This document shows, piece by piece, positions 1 to 23,752 of a DNA stretch of 44,152 nt. Below the pieces are notes generated by a model, which saw only the letters and a list, made by a program, of their open reading frames with translations, was not told the origin of the DNA and ran no database searches. The number at the start of each line of letters is the position of its first letter. Position 1 is the stretch's first letter. The stretch lies in assembly GCA_021845665.1 (NCBI GenBank), contig JAJZVO010000037.1, forward strand, positions 1 through 44,152. Reading direction: 5' to 3'. The translations under genes were made by a program, and so were the position numbers. The stretch comes from Bacteroidota bacterium. Its GTDB lineage: Bacteria; Bacteroidota; Ignavibacteria; Kryptoniales; JAKASW01.

Positions 1-1552
1 AGTATATAAACCAATTACGGGCAAAAGGAATATTGGATAGCGAGACGATGATCGAGAATAAAGAGCTTGCCGATATGCTTAGCGAAGATGCGACGCAGCA
101 CGGACGACCGTCAGAGAAACAGAGCCTACTTGAGCCGTATCTGGAAGAGTTGAAGAGGCTTATCGACAAACCCTCCGATATGAAGCCGAAGACAGCATTC
201 AAGGTCCTGTGCGGCAGGCATGATCTCATCGGGAAAGTAAGTTATACGAGCTTTAAACGATTTGTGAGGAGCAATCAGGTTGTTCTGAATGTAAAGGAGA
301 TAACCTGTCGTATTGAGACCGACCCAGGCGAAGAGATGCAGGTCGATTACTTCAAGGCGGGGATGCTGTACGATCCCATTGAAGGGAGAATGAGAACGGT
401 CTACGGTTTTATTGCGACGCTCTCGTTCAGTCGCCACAAGTTCGTGGAGTTCGTTTTCCGTCAGGACCAGCAGAGCTTCGTGTCGTCTCACGTCAAGGCG
501 TTTAATTACTTCGGTGGTGCTCCAAAGAGAATAGTACTCGACAATCTCAAGGCTGGCGTCATAAAACCGGATCTATACGATCCCAAGTTCAACCGGGGCT
601 TCCAGGAGATGGCAGAGCATTACAACACCTTCCTCGACCCTGCACGCGTCAGAAGTCCCAAGGACAAGGGTAAAGTTGAACGCGATGTCCAGACTGTCCG
701 CGAGAAGTTCAAAGAGATCACCGCACTACATCCAACCATCACGCTCGCCGAACTGAATCAGAAGACGGCGGAATGGCTGCGTAACGACTACGGGATGACC
801 AAACACGGAACCACTCACCAGATGCCTTATCGGGTATTCCAGGAGGAAGAACAGCCGAAGCTTATCCCGCTCCCTCGTGACACGTTCGAAGCGGCGTTTG
901 CCGCTCTGACATCACATTTTTTATATGATGCGGCATGCCGTAAGCGGCACTGGAAGGAAGCCACGGTCCATCCCGACTGCTACATCCAGGTGAAGAAGAA
1001 GAGTTACTCGGTCCCCTACCAATACGCAGGCAAGTGCCGCCCTGCGGCATCCCGCATGTCCTATTTTGATAATAATGAGCGGGAAAAGTCTGGGTCAAAG
1101 TATCGAACAATATCGTGCAAGTCTATTACAACGAACAGCTTATCAAAGAGCACATTGTTCTGACAAAAGGGTACCGGAAGACCGATATACTCGACTTCCC
1201 CGAGAACCTGGCGGCCGCTACCAACAAAGGACTTCCTCGATATCTACAGGACCAAGCAGCCAACATCGGCCCTCAGTTCCAGAGTCTTGTACGCTCCGTG
1301 CTGACTCCTCACGCGTTTATAAATCTCAGGCGGGCTCAGGGCATCGTCTCCGTTGCGAAGAGCTATCCGCCCGAGCTCGTCGAACAGGTGGCGGCTACTC
1401 TGGCTACCCAGCCCGTCCCATTTACACCAAAGTACTTCAAAGCTTCAATCCAAAAGCTTCAAGAGCTTCAATACCAATCACAGGAAATACCGCTCTCTGA
1501 GGAAACAAAAAACTTCGTCAGGGACCCGGAATACTTCAACCACACATCATAA
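1..1552 (+). pseudogene. istA: IS21-family transposase IstA, 5'-partial and interrupted
   Basis: IstA cuts and joins the ends of IS21 elements. The reading frame is open from the window edge, so the true start lies upstream; the first available start is a TTG at 33. The rve/DDE core is intact: Asp at about 345 (MQVDYF), Asp at about 540 (RIVLDN) and Glu at about 678 (KGKVERD). At 1034 the frame is broken by a 50-bp insert (1035-1084). Downstream the expected sequence resumes in another frame (KVWVK then VQVYYNEQLIKEH) and runs to TAA at 1550-1552. Removing the insert gives one continuous protein. The insert itself has no stop in the upstream frame; translation through it ends at 1163. The call as IS21 IstA is firm; loss of function is inferred from the frameshift. 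Confidence 0.85.
1035..1084 (+). repeat. Two-hairpin mini-repeat, copy A (50 bp, within istA)
   Basis: This insert interrupts istA after the AAG codon at 1032-1034. It starts with a perfect 6-bp hairpin, TGCCGC-CCT-GCGGCA (1035-1049). A second dyad follows: TCCCGC (1050-1055) pairing with GCGGGA (1079-1084) around an AT-rich loop. Copies B and C in istB share the CCTGCG.CATCCCG block, the AT-rich centre and the CGGGA end, in the same orientation, but are 6 bp shorter. The exact edges are uncertain by a few bases because istA could read GKKVW or GKVW after removal. Confidence 0.75.
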
Positions 1553-1976
1553 GGGGAATAGCTTTATGTCGACTAACTCCGCTGGGCTCATTACTCAGCT
1601 CAAATCTCTCAAGTTATCCGGCATGGCCGATACGCTTGAGCTAAGGCTCATGGAAGCCGAGAATAACAGCTTAAGCTTCTCTGAGTTCCTCTCCATGGCC
1701 ATCACCGACGAACTTCAGACCAGATCGAACAGGAAGCTCCAGCGACTCCTAAGTCATGCCCATGCCGATCCCAGTAAGACCCTGGAGTCCTTCGACTTCT
1801 CGTTCAATCCGTCCATCAACGCGACTGTCATACGCGAGCTCGCCACGTGTCGCTTCATCGAGAAGGGCGAAAACATCTTCTTTCTCGGTCCTACCGGTAC
1901 CGGAAAAACTCACCTGGCCAAAGCGATAGCTCATATGGCTTGCCGCAAGCATCTCAACGTCGAGTACTTCAACTTC

Positions 1977-2020
1977 TGAGCGCCTTGCGCCATCCCGACA
2001 TATAAATAATTTTGACGGGA
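1977..2020 (+). repeat. Two-hairpin mini-repeat, copy B (44 bp, within istB)
   Basis: This copy is inserted between TTC (Phe) and CAG (Gln) of istB. Its first three bases form an in-frame TGA stop. Hairpin 1 is GCGC-CTT-GCGC (1980-1990); hairpin 2 is TCCCG (1993-1997) pairing with CGGGA (2016-2020) around an 18-nt AT-rich loop. It matches copy C at 42 of 44 positions. No target duplication longer than 1 bp is evident. Confidence 0.85.
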
Positions 2021-2229
2021 CAGGAACTCTTCCGTCTTCTCTCTCAGGCTGATCTGGTTAACTCTTTGGACAAGAAGCTCAGGCCCCTCATCAGAACCGA
2101 CCTTCTCATCCTCGATGATTTTGCCTTCAAGAAGCTCGATCAGCAGTCCGCCGAGTATCTGTACGCCATTGTAGACGGCCGGTACCCGTTAAAGTCCACA
2201 ATCCTAACCAGCAACCGCGCCATTACCGA

Positions 2230-2273
2230 TGAGCGCCCTGCGCCATCCCGACATACAAATAATTTTGACGGGA
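2230..2273 (+). repeat. Two-hairpin mini-repeat, copy C (44 bp, within istB)
   Basis: This copy splits the GAC codon of the istB motif ITDWHAIFPD, after GA at 2228-2229; the codon is completed by C at 2274. It has the same length, orientation and two-hairpin layout as copy B, with two C/T differences. A 2-bp GA at each edge could be a tiny duplication or chance. Confidence 0.85.
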
Positions 2274-2463
2274 CTGGCATGCCATCTTCCCAGATCCCGT
2301 CATGGCCAACGCTCTCATGGACCGGCTTGCTCATAACGCTCACCAAATCTCTATCAAAGGAGAATCGTACAGAAAAAAGCTTTCACCGAAATCTCAAAAT
2401 CTTGACTCTAAGAAACCCGTGAATTAAACTTGTAACCGTTAACAAAAGGGTGGGGAATTAATT

Positions 2464-2498
2464 TGGCCCTGCCATGGGGAATATCGTGGCCCTCGACA
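2464..2498 (+). repeat. Putative IS21 right-end transposase-binding repeats
   Basis: Two TGGCCCT motifs (2464-2470, 2487-2493) lie 23 bp apart and are followed by CGACA ending at 2498, just after istB. This fits the repeated terminal binding sites of IS21 elements. Without the left end in view the inverted-repeat match cannot be tested. Confidence 0.4.
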
Positions 2499-2568
2499 GT
2501 TTTGTAGGCAAGGAGAAAAGACAGTCCGCAGGATCCTCCGGATAACTTCGTGAAGGAGGATACTGGAA

Positions 2569-2847
2569 ATGGAGACAGAGAAAAAGAGAAAGGCATACGA
2601 CCGGCAGTTCAATATTGAGGCAGTGAATATGTATGTGAACGGAGGTCGCACAGTGGAAGGAGCAGCACGGGAACTGGGAATAAGTACAAACTCACTGCAT
2701 CAATCCAAACGAATACGCACCGATCGCGACTCGCGCTCACCGGTCTCATTAATTCATCCGCTAAATAAGGAATTGATTAATCGCTGCGATTGTAATAGAA
2801 CGATTAAGAGAGACGACATGTTGGCATTGCAAGGAGTACTCTCGTAG
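2569..2847 (+). pseudogene. IS3-type transposase OrfA fragment (HTH_Tnp_1)
   Basis: ATG at 2569 follows a strong AAGGAGGA ribosome-binding site (2553-2560). The first ~45 residues are a typical HTH_Tnp_1 domain of IS3/IS911 OrfA: a KRKAYDRQF start, then an E-A-V...G.TV..AARELGIS helix-turn-helix and LHQSK, where the family usually has LHQWK. After about residue 47 the sequence (RTDRDSRSPVSL...) no longer looks like OrfA, which normally continues into a leucine zipper, and no OrfB integrase follows. This is therefore a truncated element with foreign sequence fused to its 3' side. The AT-rich stretch at about 2745-2810 has several short inverted repeats around ATTAAT/GATTAATCG and may serve as upstream DNA of the rhodanese gene. 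Confidence 0.65.
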
Positions 2848-2903
2848 TTCCCTCAGGAGAATCTTTTGAAAGACCGAACTAAATCGAAAGGGATTATCGG
2901 AAA

Positions 2904-3392
2904 ATGCTAAGACGAATATATTTGACATTAACTATCATATCATTTGTATCATTCGCGTTCCTCTCGAACGCAGCGATTGCCGCACAGAAGAGGACGGAGT
3001 TGAGCGCAAGTGACGTCATCAAGCCGCAGGAGCTCCTGAAAATGCTTTCCGGCAACCCTCACGACAGGCCGCTTGTCCTCCAGGTAGGCTTCAGCCTCCT
3101 GTACGAGAGCGGGCACGTCGACGGAGCGATCCACGCGGGACCGGCAATGAGACCCGACGGCATCAGGAAGCTCAGAGCGGCAGTGAAGAAAGTCCCGAAG
3201 AACAGGATGATCGTCATCTACTGCGGATGCTGTCCGTGGCCTGAGTGCCCGAATATCAGGCCCGCGTATGAGCTACTGCACCATCTTGGATTTAAGGATG
3301 TGAAGACGTTGTACATTCCTATAAATTTCGATAAAGACTGGATCAAGAAAGGTTATCCGATAATGAAGGGGTCCAAACCGGGTCCGCATTAA
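2904..3392 (+). CDS. Secreted rhodanese-like protein with Cys-rich active-site loop
   Basis: This is a 162-residue protein with a Sec signal peptide (residues 1-27: basic start, hydrophobic core, cleavage near AIAAQ) and one rhodanese domain. Visible rhodanese features are LVLQVGFSLLYESGHVDGAIHA, in which Q replaces the usual Asp of the L.D.R motif and the .GHI.GA element is clear, and the active-site loop in VIYCGCCPWPECPN. That loop holds four cysteines (C-G-C-C-x4-C) where classical rhodaneses have one catalytic Cys in CxxGxR, so metal binding or thiol chemistry is as likely as sulfur transfer. It acts in the periplasm or is secreted. It precedes the RND adaptor/pump genes by 242 bp on the same strand, which hints at a role in metal or thiol stress. 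The ribosome-binding site is weak (GGG about 13 nt upstream). Confidence 0.75.
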   Translation: MLRRIYLTLTIISFVSFAFLSNAAIAAQKRTELSASDVIKPQELLKMLSGNPHDRPLVLQVGFSLLYESGHVDGAIHAGPAMRPDGIRKLRAAVKKVPKNRMIVIYCGCCPWPECPNIRPAYELLHHLGFKDVKTLYIPINFDKDWIKKGYPIMKGSKPGPH

Positions 3393-3553
3393 CCGTTCAC
3401 AACGCGATTCGCATAACTGTCGCCGGGACCGGACATTTCCGCACTCCCGCATTAGCCTGGTCAATGCTGACAATAGGTTCGCACATTCTTCCGGGGGTTG
3501 CCTTCGGACAGACCTGCCGAGAAGAAGCGCTTCAATCGGCATAAGCCACCAAG

Positions 3554-3608
3554 ATGACAATTCTGTAATGTGACGGTAAGACTCCGGTAAACAATCCGGT
3601 CTTATCTT
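3554..3608 (+). promoter_or_regulatory. CusR/copper-box-like operator and putative promoter of the RND operon
   Basis: ATGACAATTCTGTAAT (3554-3569) matches 12 of 14 defined positions of the E. coli CusR box core ATGACAAnnTTGTCAT. Its spacing is preserved and the left half is perfect. A TATCTT hexamer (3603-3608) could be a -10 element, placing a start near 3615, about 53 bp from the box centre and compatible with activation by an OmpR-type regulator. Between them lies a bulged dyad: TAAGA-CT-CCGG (3577-3587) and CCGG-TCTTA (3596-3604). The gene for a CusR-like regulator is at 11311-11982. The box is seen directly; the regulatory link is inferred. Confidence 0.5.
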
Positions 3609-3634
3609 GCAGTGACAAAAAGCAGGATTGCTAA

Positions 3635-4696
3635 ATGGGTCATCGGAAGCTCTTCAATATTCTCGGACTGTTAGCCTTTTCCCTTTCCGCGCTGTATGCG
3701 GTCAAGTTGATAGGACAAACCGCTGTGCGCAAAAATGGAAGCACAAATGAGGTCATCCCAAAAGCCCCTTCCCAAGTCGTCAGTAAAGAAACCGATAGCG
3801 GCAGGCATATGCTTACCATCGGAAGAAGAGCTCAGCAGCTATCGGGGATCTCCACGCAGATGCTTACAGCCGAGAAGAGATCGCGTTCCATAAAGGCTTA
3901 CGGCGAGGTACTCGACCTGCGAAATTTATTTTCGCTCGTCACCTCCTTTGAGGCCGCGAAGGCCGCGTCAATGAAATCCATTTTCCAGCTCGAAATATCG
4001 AGGAACAAATACGTAAGGGCGAAGCTCCTCTTCGGATCGACGAAGTACGTCTCGCTGGAACAGCTTCAGGCTGCCAGGGCGGCATATTACTCCGATCTTG
4101 CCGACAGCGAATCGGCATTCGGGAATTTGTCCGGACTCAAAGGACAGATCACAGAGGAATGGGGGAAGCGGATTTCACACCTGGTAACCTCCAGCTCTTC
4201 ATTCGTGACAAGACTGATGAGTAACGGGATATCCATGATGCTCGTTACAATCCAGGAACCCGCCAGGTCGTACAACGCTCCAGGTACGGCGCTCGTCAGA
4301 GCCATCGACGGGAACCTCATTGAGGCGCATCTAATCTCGATATCGCCCGTGTCGAATCCGCAGATTCAGGGAGTGAGTTATTTTTATGAGGCGCCGAATT
4401 CATCCAATTTGCCCGCCGGGACAAATGTGGTCGCGTACCTTGACGGCGGGAAAGTGATGAACGGGGTGAGGGTACCGTCGTCCGCGATCGTTTGGTATGA
4501 TGGCACACCGTGGATATTCATTAAAACAGGAGCGACAAGTTTCGAGCGGAAGGAGATATCGCTAACGATTCCGACGGCAGATGGATGGTTCATCCACAAT
4601 GGGGTGAAGCCCGGCGAAGACGTTGTCGTCAACGGCGCACAGCTTCTTCTCTCGCAGGAGTTGATAGGAAACACTCACGGTAATAATGATGACTAG
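3635..4696 (+). CDS. RND efflux periplasmic adaptor (HlyD/CusB-like)
   Basis: This 353-residue protein links an inner-membrane RND pump to an outer-membrane channel. ATG at 3635 follows AGGA (3624-3627). One N-terminal membrane segment (about residues 6-26) anchors it. A barrel/lipoyl half (LTIGRRAQQLSGISTQ...) precedes an alpha-hairpin of about 60 residues (SFEAAKAAS...ESAFGNLSG). Beta-barrel strands and a C-terminal membrane-proximal domain (VPSSAIVWYDGTPWIFIKTG, then VKPGEDVVVNGAQLLLSQEL) follow. The order and the C-terminal motifs are those of membrane-fusion proteins. It is shorter than CusB (about 400 residues) and lacks the Met-rich N-terminal metal-binding stretch of CusB. The pump gene follows after 55 bp, and a CusR-type box lies upstream. 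Substrate cannot be told from sequence. Confidence 0.8.
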   Translation: MGHRKLFNILGLLAFSLSALYAVKLIGQTAVRKNGSTNEVIPKAPSQVVSKETDSGRHMLTIGRRAQQLSGISTQMLTAEKRSRSIKAYGEVLDLRNLFSLVTSFEAAKAASMKSIFQLEISRNKYVRAKLLFGSTKYVSLEQLQAARAAYYSDLADSESAFGNLSGLKGQITEEWGKRISHLVTSSSSFVTRLMSNGISMMLVTIQEPARSYNAPGTALVRAIDGNLIEAHLISISPVSNPQIQGVSYFYEAPNSSNLPAGTNVVAYLDGGKVMNGVRVPSSAIVWYDGTPWIFIKTGATSFERKEISLTIPTADGWFIHNGVKPGEDVVVNGAQLLLSQELIGNTHGNNDD

Positions 4697-4751
4697 CGAG
4701 TCGGCCGAAAGAACAAAACTCACAAATCCCATCCATAAAACTTCGCATTAA

Positions 4752-7700
4752 ATGCTGACATCGATAGTCCGGTTTTCGCTCAAGTTCAGGGGAATAGTAA
4801 TCGCTTTATCACTTGTACTTCTCGTGTACGGTTTTTATGAGTTGACCGGTGCCAAGTATGACGTCTTTCCGCAATTTGCACCGGCGCGAGTGAAGATACA
4901 GACCGAAGCGCCAGGCCTTTCCCCTAAACAGGTTGAGCTGCTCGTTACGCAGCCGATCGAAGAAGCGGTAAACGGGACGGTGGGAGTTCGTACGATGATG
5001 TCGAACTCGATACAGGGAATATCGATTGTCAAGATCACATTCAAGTCGGGCACAAATATTTATCTCGACAGGCAGCTGGTCGCTGAGCGGCTCTCCGAGA
5101 TCGCGGGACAGCTCCCTGCCGGCGTAAGTCCGCCCGTTATCACTCCGCTCACTTCGTCGCTGAGCGTCATCATGGCAATCGGACTCACTTCCGATTCATT
5201 ATCATTAATGCGGCTCAGGACGGCGGCGGACTGGATATTGAAACCGGGTATTCTCGCAGTGCCCGGGGTGGCAAAGGTCGTCACTTTCGGCGGAGGCGTG
5301 AAAGAGCTTCAGGTCCAGGTGAAACCAGACCTACTTCTCAAATACGGATTGTCCATAAACGATGTAATCGATGCCGCCAAAAGGGCGACGGGTGTGGAAG
5401 GGGCAGGCTTCATCGACACGCACAACCAGCGGATAAATATCCAGACAGAAGGGCAATCGATAACACCTGCCGAGCTAGGCGACGCCGTCGTCGTGCAGAA
5501 AGACGGAGCTGCCGTCCTGCTGAAAGATGTCGCCAAGGTGATCGATGCACCTGCACCGGCAATCGGTGCCGCTCAGATAATGGGGAAAGCGGGCATCGTG
5601 ATGCAGATTTCGGATCAGTACGGGGCCAATACGCTGGTCGTTACGAAGAGAATCGACAGGGCCCTGAATGAGCTCATCCCCACGCTGAAGTCGGAAGGGA
5701 TAATCGTCCACCGCAATGTATTCCGCGCGTCAGACTTCATCGACGCGGCGGTTCACGATATCGGGACTTCCCTGCTTTTGGGAGGCATACTCGTGGTAGC
5801 GATCCTCCTTCTCTTCCTTTTCAATCTCAGAACGGCGGCAATCTCACTGACGGTGATACCACTTGCTCTACTGACGGCAGTGGTCGTGCTGCAGTTCCTG
5901 GGATACGGCCTGAACACTATGACGCTCGGCGGGTTGGCAATTGCGATCGGTGAAGTGGTCGACGACGCGGTTATAGATGTAGAGAACATCCTGCGCCGTC
6001 TGCGCGAGAACAAACTGGCGGCAAAGCCGAAGCCGGTTCTTCGCGTTGTCTTGGACGCGTCCATCGAGGTAAGAAGTGCCGTCGTGTACGCCACATTCGC
6101 CGTGATACTTGTGTTCTTGCCGGTACTGACAATGACCGGTCTGGCAGGAAGACTTTTCTCACCGCTCGCTCTCGCTTACGTATTTGCCATACTTGCTTCA
6201 CTGCTGTTCGCGCTGACGGTGACTCCCGCGATGTGTCTTTTGCTGCTCGGCCGCTCACATGTCATAGACGCCGAGCCGCGCTCGACGGCATGGATGAAGA
6301 ACCAATACAGAAGGCTTCTTTCATCAATTGAAAATCATTTTGGCGCCGTGGTTACAGGAGTCGCGATTCTAATAATCGCGGGCATCGCAATAATACCGAC
6401 GTTCAGGGGATCCTTCCTTCCGCAATTCAGGGAAGGCAATTATATCGTGCATATGGAGGAAGTGCCCGGTACGTCGCTTCGACAGACGCTCAAGCTTGGC
6501 GAGAGAGTCACTCGCACATTGCTGAAGCTCCCTTTTGTCGAGTCGGTAATCGCCGATGCCGGCCGCGCCTCGCTAAGCAGCGACTCTCACGGCACACATC
6601 AGAGCGAGATTTGGGTGAAGCTCAAGCCGACGAGCGACGTTTCCGCCAATACGGCAGAGAACAGGATAAGAGATGCGGTCGCCAAATTCACTGGAGCACA
6701 TTTTTCAGTCAACTCATTTCTGACCGAGAGAATCAACGAAACGCTTACCGGATACACGTCCGGGGTCGTTGTCAATATATTTGGAAATAACCTCGACACT
6801 CTGGATCGCAAATCGGCGGAGGTCGCCCGCATTCTGTGGACAATCCGCGGAGCGACCGACATCCAGCTTCAATCGCCCCCGGGCGTACCTCAAATGGTGG
6901 TGCGCCTTCGGAGAGCGCAGCTCGAGAAATGGGGATTCGAGCCCGTCGATGTCATGAATGCCGTTCGGACGGCATATCAGGGCGATATTGTGGGACAGGT
7001 CTATCATGGCAACAGGGTATTCGACGTGGCGGTGATTCTCGATGCGAGAGAGAGACACGATCCCACCGATTTGGGGAGACTTCTTCTCCGTAACTCCAAC
7101 GGAGTTTACGTGCGGCTCGCCCAGTTGGCCGACATATACGAAGACTCGGGGCGATATGTGGTTCAGCACGATGGCGGGCGCCGAGTCGAGGCGATTACCT
7201 GCGATGTAAGCGGAAGAGGCATCGGCTCCTTCGTCAGCGAAGCGAGGCGGCGCATCGCATCCGCAGTACGCTTCCCTCCGGGGACGTACCTAACCTTCAG
7301 CGGAACTGCCGAGGCGAAGGCCAGGTCGGAACGCGAGATACTCATCCATTCGTTGTTCGCAGCCATAGGGATAGTCATTCTCCTTTCGGTTGTGATGAAG
7401 AATTACAGGAATCTCTTGCTTATCCTGGTCAATCTGCCGTTTGCTTTGGTCGGCGGAGTAATAGCGGTTTTCATTACCGGCGGGAATATGTCGATTGGAT
7501 CGCTCGTCGGCTTCGTGACGCTGTTCGGGATCACGCTCAGGAATTCGATAATGCTTATTTCGCATTACGAACATCTTGTGGAAGTGGAAGGTAGGGATTG
7601 GTCGTTCGATGCTGCGATCCGCGGTGCCTCTGAAAGGCTGGTACCGATCCTGATGACGGCAACGGTAACGGGATTAGGACTTCTCCCGCTCGCACTTGCC

Positions 7701-23634: not shown

Positions 23635-23752
23635 CTAGTGCCCATCCAACTATCATTTGCTAACTTGGTCCCGCCAAAAGCGGGCGGGATGCTCATTCCA
23701 ACAATAATTTTACCTGCACGTTGTTTGGTAAAATTAGTTGGAATGGCACTAG
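23635..23752. repeat. 118-bp element with terminal and internal inverted repeats (MITE-like or bidirectional terminator)
   Basis: The ends CTAGTGCCCATCCAACTA (23635-23652) and TAGTTGGAATGGCACTAG (23735-23752) are inverted copies matching at 17 of 18 positions. Inside lie a GC-rich hairpin, TCCCGCC...GGCGGGA (23669-23689), and a second long dyad, ATTCCAACAATAATTTTACC (23695-23714) with GGTAAAATTAGTTGGAAT (23727-23744), whose right arm overlaps the terminal repeat. The element fills the gap between two convergent genes and ends 6 bp from the fadE stop. It could act as a bidirectional terminator, but the size and terminal repeats also suit a small non-autonomous element. A flanking duplication is not evident. 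Confidence 0.65.

Follow-up and report, generated by a model that had tools for sequence, protein, structure and literature searches.

A short repeat inserted four times into one IS21 element of a Bacteroidota genome is very probably (probability about 0.88) a genus-restricted, non-autonomous, site-selective mobile element of about 42-54 bp built of two hairpins. Comparisons across the genus document its mobility, judged by sites that are filled in some sequences and empty in others, together with its anatomy, the covariation of its stems and the nesting of its copies, and at the level of sequence they indicate that insertion is precise, free of target duplication, possible in either orientation and directed to preferred nucleotides. 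The window, i.e., the whole stretch of 44,152 nucleotides that was analyzed, is contig C19 of a draft genome of 4.64 Mb in 135 contigs.

Mini-Elements in the IS21 Element of the Window

The IS21 element spans a contig join, with the 5' end of istA located on contig C86 (identical 127-bp overlap at the end of C86), and both of its ends are present. Its genes and the four mini-elements that interrupt them, three on the plus strand and one on the minus strand, are listed in Table 1.

Table 1. Genes of the IS21 element and mini-element copies within them (positions in the window)
Feature	Position	Strand	Match or subfamily	Remarks
istA of IS21	1-1551	+	NF033546 IS21 transposase, E 1.5e-64	Interrupted by the copies at 899 and 1035
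Fourth copy	899-949	-	Subfamily C, 51 bp	In frame in istA; absent from the initial annotation
Copy 1	1035-1084	+	Subfamily B, 50 bp	Shifts the istA frame
istB of IS21	1566-2426	+	PF01695 IstB_IS21, E 1.3e-71 (inserts skipped)	Interrupted by the copies at 1977 and 2230
Copy 2	1977-2020	+	Subfamily A, 44 bp	Shifts the istB frame and brings in an immediate TGA
Copy 3	2230-2273	+	Subfamily A, 44 bp	Shifts the istB frame

The initial annotation had described copies 1 to 3 as members of one repeat family with TG...CGGGA ends, all in the same orientation. The three copies are present as described, belong to one family, and their ends are exact when set against empty sites. Their common orientation also holds, but not for the set as a whole, as the fourth copy lies on the opposite strand. 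The limits, strand and in-frame state of this fourth copy were set by alignment with five IS21 relatives; it consists of a TGCCGCTTACGGCA hairpin followed by a TGCCGC...GCGGCA hairpin, and positions 898-950 are a repeat in their own right in a BLAST comparison of the first 2.6 kb with the own genome (matches on C70, C128 and C8). Copies 2 and 3 agree at all but 2 of 44 positions, and shuffled sequence yielded no match. A covariance model (R1), built from seven copies that did not include copy 1, found copy 1 at E 1.9e-5 and the fourth copy at E 0.041. DNA fold z scores were -3.8 for the fourth copy, -3.6 for copy 1, and -3.1 for both copies 2 and 3.

Skipping the inserts restores both genes, as had been proposed, with istA passing from frame 2 to frame 1 and istB running through frames 2, 1, and 0; apart from its two inserts, istB is open. 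The sites at 899, 1035, and 2230 are exactly empty, with no target duplication, in all five IS21 relatives (two copies in genome G002 and one each in G009, G011, and G005). The dN/dS of istB against its nearest relatives is 0.03-0.05. Because the IS21 genes are otherwise without decay, the four inserts are probably recent, and they probably inactivate this IS21, since the contrast in reading frame between inserts in host genes and those in transposases, described below, speaks against splicing or skipping.

Structure and Distribution of the Family

The elements contain no gene, measure mostly 42-54 bp and comprise two adjacent hairpins. Hairpin 1 has a GC-rich stem and a loop of 3-4 nt (e.g., TG-A-GCGC CYT GCGC-CA, TGCCGC CTT GCGGCA, or TC-A-CCGC CTT GCGG-GA), and hairpin 2 follows directly as TCCCG..AT-rich..CGGGA or TGCCGC..GCGGCA. 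Among 111 distinct copies, 96.9% of cells were paired, with 45 double changes versus 14.6 in shuffled data and a covariation score of 0.130 versus 0.047, counts that rest on a structure-fitted alignment and thus lean towards the structure; slid controls scored far lower.

At E<=1, the covariance model matched the own genome 26 times. With the same model, the family was found in every one of the genus's 13 genomes, and 48 genomes from other genera in the order or class gave no match, all genomes being drafts that are probably metagenome-assembled. No viral contig and no plasmid with the family was found, and positions 1-6000 of the window gave no Rfam match at E<=1. The simple pattern CATCCCG..CGGGA had 87 matches versus 2 in the control; it mixes several families and was therefore not used as a copy count.

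Genomic Surroundings of the Elements

Copies are also found in transposases of IS1634, IS256, and IS1380, in group II introns, in REP-like hairpins, in heptamer-like intergenic repeats and in other copies of the family. Nested cases that allow exact reconstruction include a subfamily A element within B' (L124) and subfamily B elements within A (L173 and L217).

Several further observations concern the repeats that accompany the elements. In several genomes of the genus, mini-elements lie at the same point of a REP-like hairpin (GAGCCTGTCCCGA/CACGCTCTTGGTCGGGAAGCGTC; L176, L187, L188, L209, L136, and L101), and others lie in the loop of GTCATTCCCG..CGGGAATCC hairpins similar to known CGTC-type REPs (L233, 1098-1142; L126, 1501-1544). 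At four loci (L083, L181, L349, and L350), subfamily C elements are placed between the D1-D4 part of a group II intron and its RT gene or D5-6 (Rfam RF02005 and RF00029), and the intron may be able to spread them by retrohoming. In genome G011, one element sits near the beginning of a multicopy repeat at which contigs stop in no fewer than six places (L177, L178, and L195-L198), and it therefore travels with that repeat. Two other repeats are distinct: positions 23669-23691 of the window (minus strand), with their flanks, are part of a repeat of roughly 110-130 bp (AGTGCCATTCCAAC..hairpin..TTGGAATGAGCATCCCGCCCGCTTTTGGCGGGACCAAG...), of which the own genome contains about ten nearly identical copies, and the near-perfect palindrome CATCCCGATAAGTTGAACTCAACTTATCGGGA, present there in several copies (e.g., C130:7089, C92:28136, C86:8873, and C83:32381), is a separate repeat family.

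Target Sites and Candidate Routes of Mobilization

The observation of no duplication longer than 1-2 bp was borne out: across 99 copies, the two flanks matched no more often than by chance for k=1-4 and almost never for longer k, and the 2-bp GA seen at copy 3 is coincidental. Subfamily A carries a C on the right flank in 53 of 60 copies, most often as CA, equivalent to a left-hand G on the other strand, and the preference of subfamily B is smaller. The left flanks vary, with no fixed left target sequence or tetranucleotide. This weak flank motif by itself does not account for the repeated use of one nucleotide described below. Two further ideas on targeting were discarded. Junctions at 56 distinct sites, folded with RNA and DNA parameters on both strands, were neither more unpaired nor more enclosed than shifted positions, which disfavors targeting of hairpin loops, and a pairing of the TGAGC start with GCTC in the right flanks was dropped because the GCTC stemmed from a few repeated host hairpins.

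The initial annotation was reminded of REP-type or IS200/IS605-like mobilization, in which the repeat would be moved via single-stranded DNA by a Y1 (HUH) transposase such as RAYT or the TnpA of IS200/IS605. The hairpin anatomy, the absence of target duplication, the flank preference on one side and the presence of Y1 genes in 12 of the 13 genomes of the genus are consistent with this route. However, a GTAG or CGTC tag is found at neither end of any of the 99 copies, the left tetranucleotide is not fixed, and the covariance model gave no match (E<=0.5) in the roughly 3 kb loci (about 1.5 kb on each side) of 32 Y1_Tnp genes from 12 genomes. In addition, genome G003 carries three copies and no Y1 gene was detected in it. 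The orientation of IS200/IS605 follows the lagging-strand template; that of the mini-elements agrees with local GC skew, here only a proxy and with subfamilies pooled, in 21 of 46 copies, which shows no clear bias. Taken together, the results do not support the earlier suggestion, which is less likely than not; a Y1 enzyme acting in trans is compatible with them.

Copying through RNA, in which an element transcript would be attached to the target DNA for copying by a reverse transcriptase, perhaps that of a group II intron, could explain the compact RNA-like folds with their compensatory changes and the copies within group II introns. However, RVT_1 was not found in 6 of the 13 genomes, among them the copy-rich G006, G008, and G010, and elements occur within genes in both orientations, and therefore insertion is not simply into mRNA. 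This route thus seems rather unlikely, even though a reverse transcriptase, like a Y1 enzyme, is compatible with the data as a past or trans-acting source. It is also conceivable, albeit doubtful, that an element of 42-54 nt, selective enough to strike a single nucleotide more than once, enters its target as a folded single strand with the help of an enzyme or RNA distinct from both Y1 transposases and the reverse transcriptases of group II introns; if true, some of the smallest mobile DNA known would move by a new mechanism.

Independent Insertions at the Same Nucleotide

Many full copies elsewhere in the genome and clean empty sites had been named beforehand as support for mobility, and both were encountered, with full copies genome- and genus-wide and clean empty and filled sites in orthologous IS copies, an orthology that is not vertical. 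As to whether the hits in IS21 reflect an active tiny element or a strong target preference, the outcome is both. The set of IS1380 transposases offers a simple example, being filled in C11 and empty in C76 and G010_C55, and one of the IS21 copies of G002 carries a further, different insert in istA (subfamily B', 47-48 bp).

The site at 1977 is empty in G009, G011, and G005, and the identical 44-mer occupies the same nucleotide in both IS21 copies of G002. The three filled istB genes have pairwise dS values of 0.56-0.73 and a dN/dS of about 0.03-0.05, downstream of the site as well, while their inserts are 44/44 identical, and differences between them begin within 5-24 nt on both sides of the site. 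Filling by separate recent insertions appears to be the better reading, because descent over so large a distance should have left strong divergence in a neutral insert. The alternative, that copies at the same site reflect shared inheritance or gene conversion, can point to one site common to three IS21 copies and to the support of only 86% for the separation of the filled copies in the tree, where they form no clade. It is improbable in view of the identical insert and the closely placed flanking differences, and IS1634 is the decisive case. There, the transposase genes W_C131 of the own genome and G002_C88, 68% identical to each other, each have a subfamily A element, inserted at one and the same nucleotide, and the two inserts agree at 41 of 43 positions. 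Each filled gene has an empty closest relative, G007_C66 (84% identity) and G012_C12 (196 of 200 positions around the site), and two further homologues are empty as well; one nucleotide has thus been filled twice independently.

Inserts in Host Genes and in Transposases

Host-gene cases are few, yet all three recognized inserts are multiples of three and open. They comprise a 48-bp element at the same codon of ccmF (cytochrome c biogenesis; L223 and L228) in the genomes of two species, possibly from one event, and a 45-bp element in a prolyl oligopeptidase gene that is in frame and open throughout. In contrast, most inserts in transposases have lengths of 43, 44, 49, or 50 bp or include stop codons. 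That inserts are harmless, being removed from mRNA by splicing or bypassed by ribosomes and hence long retained in working transposases, would fit the low dN/dS of istB downstream of the shared site 1977 and the identical insert in three filled istB copies, but it is highly improbable because frame would be irrelevant if inserts were removed or skipped, and because IS1634 relatives indicate recent gain and, at copies 1 and 2, the take-off codon differs from the landing codon.

The site-selective mobile double hairpin accommodates these observations as follows. A trans-supplied enzyme would recognize the folded single strand, whether DNA or RNA, and insert the element. Transposase genes and other repeats would act as sinks in which damage is tolerated, and in host genes only in-frame, open inserts, which would be translated, would survive.

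Comparison with Known Systems

Movement of tiny palindromic repeats in bacteria has so far been argued mainly from copy numbers. The small dispersed repeats (SDRs) of Nostoc, an account attributed to Elhai et al. in 2008, are reportedly structured sequences of 21-27 nt with compensatory changes and nested insertions, and are said to occur in heptamer repeats and minitransposons, in one clade only, and to lack an enzyme of their own; an RNA/reverse-transcriptase route has been proposed for them. Set against this description, the mini-elements share a covarying structure, nesting, clade restriction, and mobility without a gene of their own. They differ in their size of 42-54 bp, their two adjacent hairpins, the phylum of their host, and the independent insertions at the same nucleotide.

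Other comparisons are less close. Hairpins and insertion without target duplication are shared with IS200/IS605, but the mini-elements have no fixed left target tetranucleotide, and none of the copies examined contains or adjoins a Y1 gene. Neither the terminal inverted repeats nor the target duplication by which a MITE mirrors its parent DDE element are found, and each of the two ends is part of a different hairpin. The byps of Magnusiomyces mitochondria are inserts skipped in working genes and present there irrespective of frame, whereas the host-gene inserts described here are open multiples of three.

REPs tagged with CGTC or GTAG are defined by an unpaired tetranucleotide at one end, include the Rickettsia palindromic elements, are intragenic and intergenic, and are sometimes inserted within palindromes, the CGTC type having no dedicated transposase (PMC3733652). 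REPINs are REP-related repeats alongside which SDRs are cited (PMC3116915). The mini-elements resemble both in being short palindromic repeats in and between genes, sometimes within palindromes, and, as with CGTC REPs, no dedicated transposase is associated with them. However, they have no terminal unpaired tag, they consist of two tandem hairpins rather than one hairpin or an inverted pair, their ends are proven by empty sites, and no copy lies beside the 32 Y1_Tnp genes in the way that GTAG REPs and REPINs lie beside RAYT genes. The genus also holds REP-like hairpins of its own, and mini-elements insert into their loops.

In mitochondria, GC42 is a GC-rich hairpin unit of about 42 nt whose AG direct repeats are taken as target duplication, and an RNA-mediated route has been discussed for yeast GC clusters (PMC4478555). 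Fungal mitochondrial double-hairpin elements (DHEs) and GC clusters share with the mini-elements GC-rich hairpins of ~42 nt, presence or absence at homologous sites and merged units (PMC4478555), and the two adjacent hairpins with covarying stems that characterize DHEs are found here as well. Unlike GC42, the mini-elements reside in bacteria and produce no target duplication.

By analogy, the mini-elements would seem to work like Nostoc SDRs and the mitochondrial double-hairpin and GC-cluster elements, and they resemble REPs without a tag. They are among the smallest pieces of DNA with such evidence of mobility. For annotation, they imply that IS genes that seem multiply frameshifted may merely hold several precise inserts of 43-51 bp. 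Ends, empty sites, nesting and independent insertions at the same nucleotide can all be read within one genus, which makes these elements, next to their Nostoc and mitochondrial counterparts, a system in which to seek the target rule and the enzyme.
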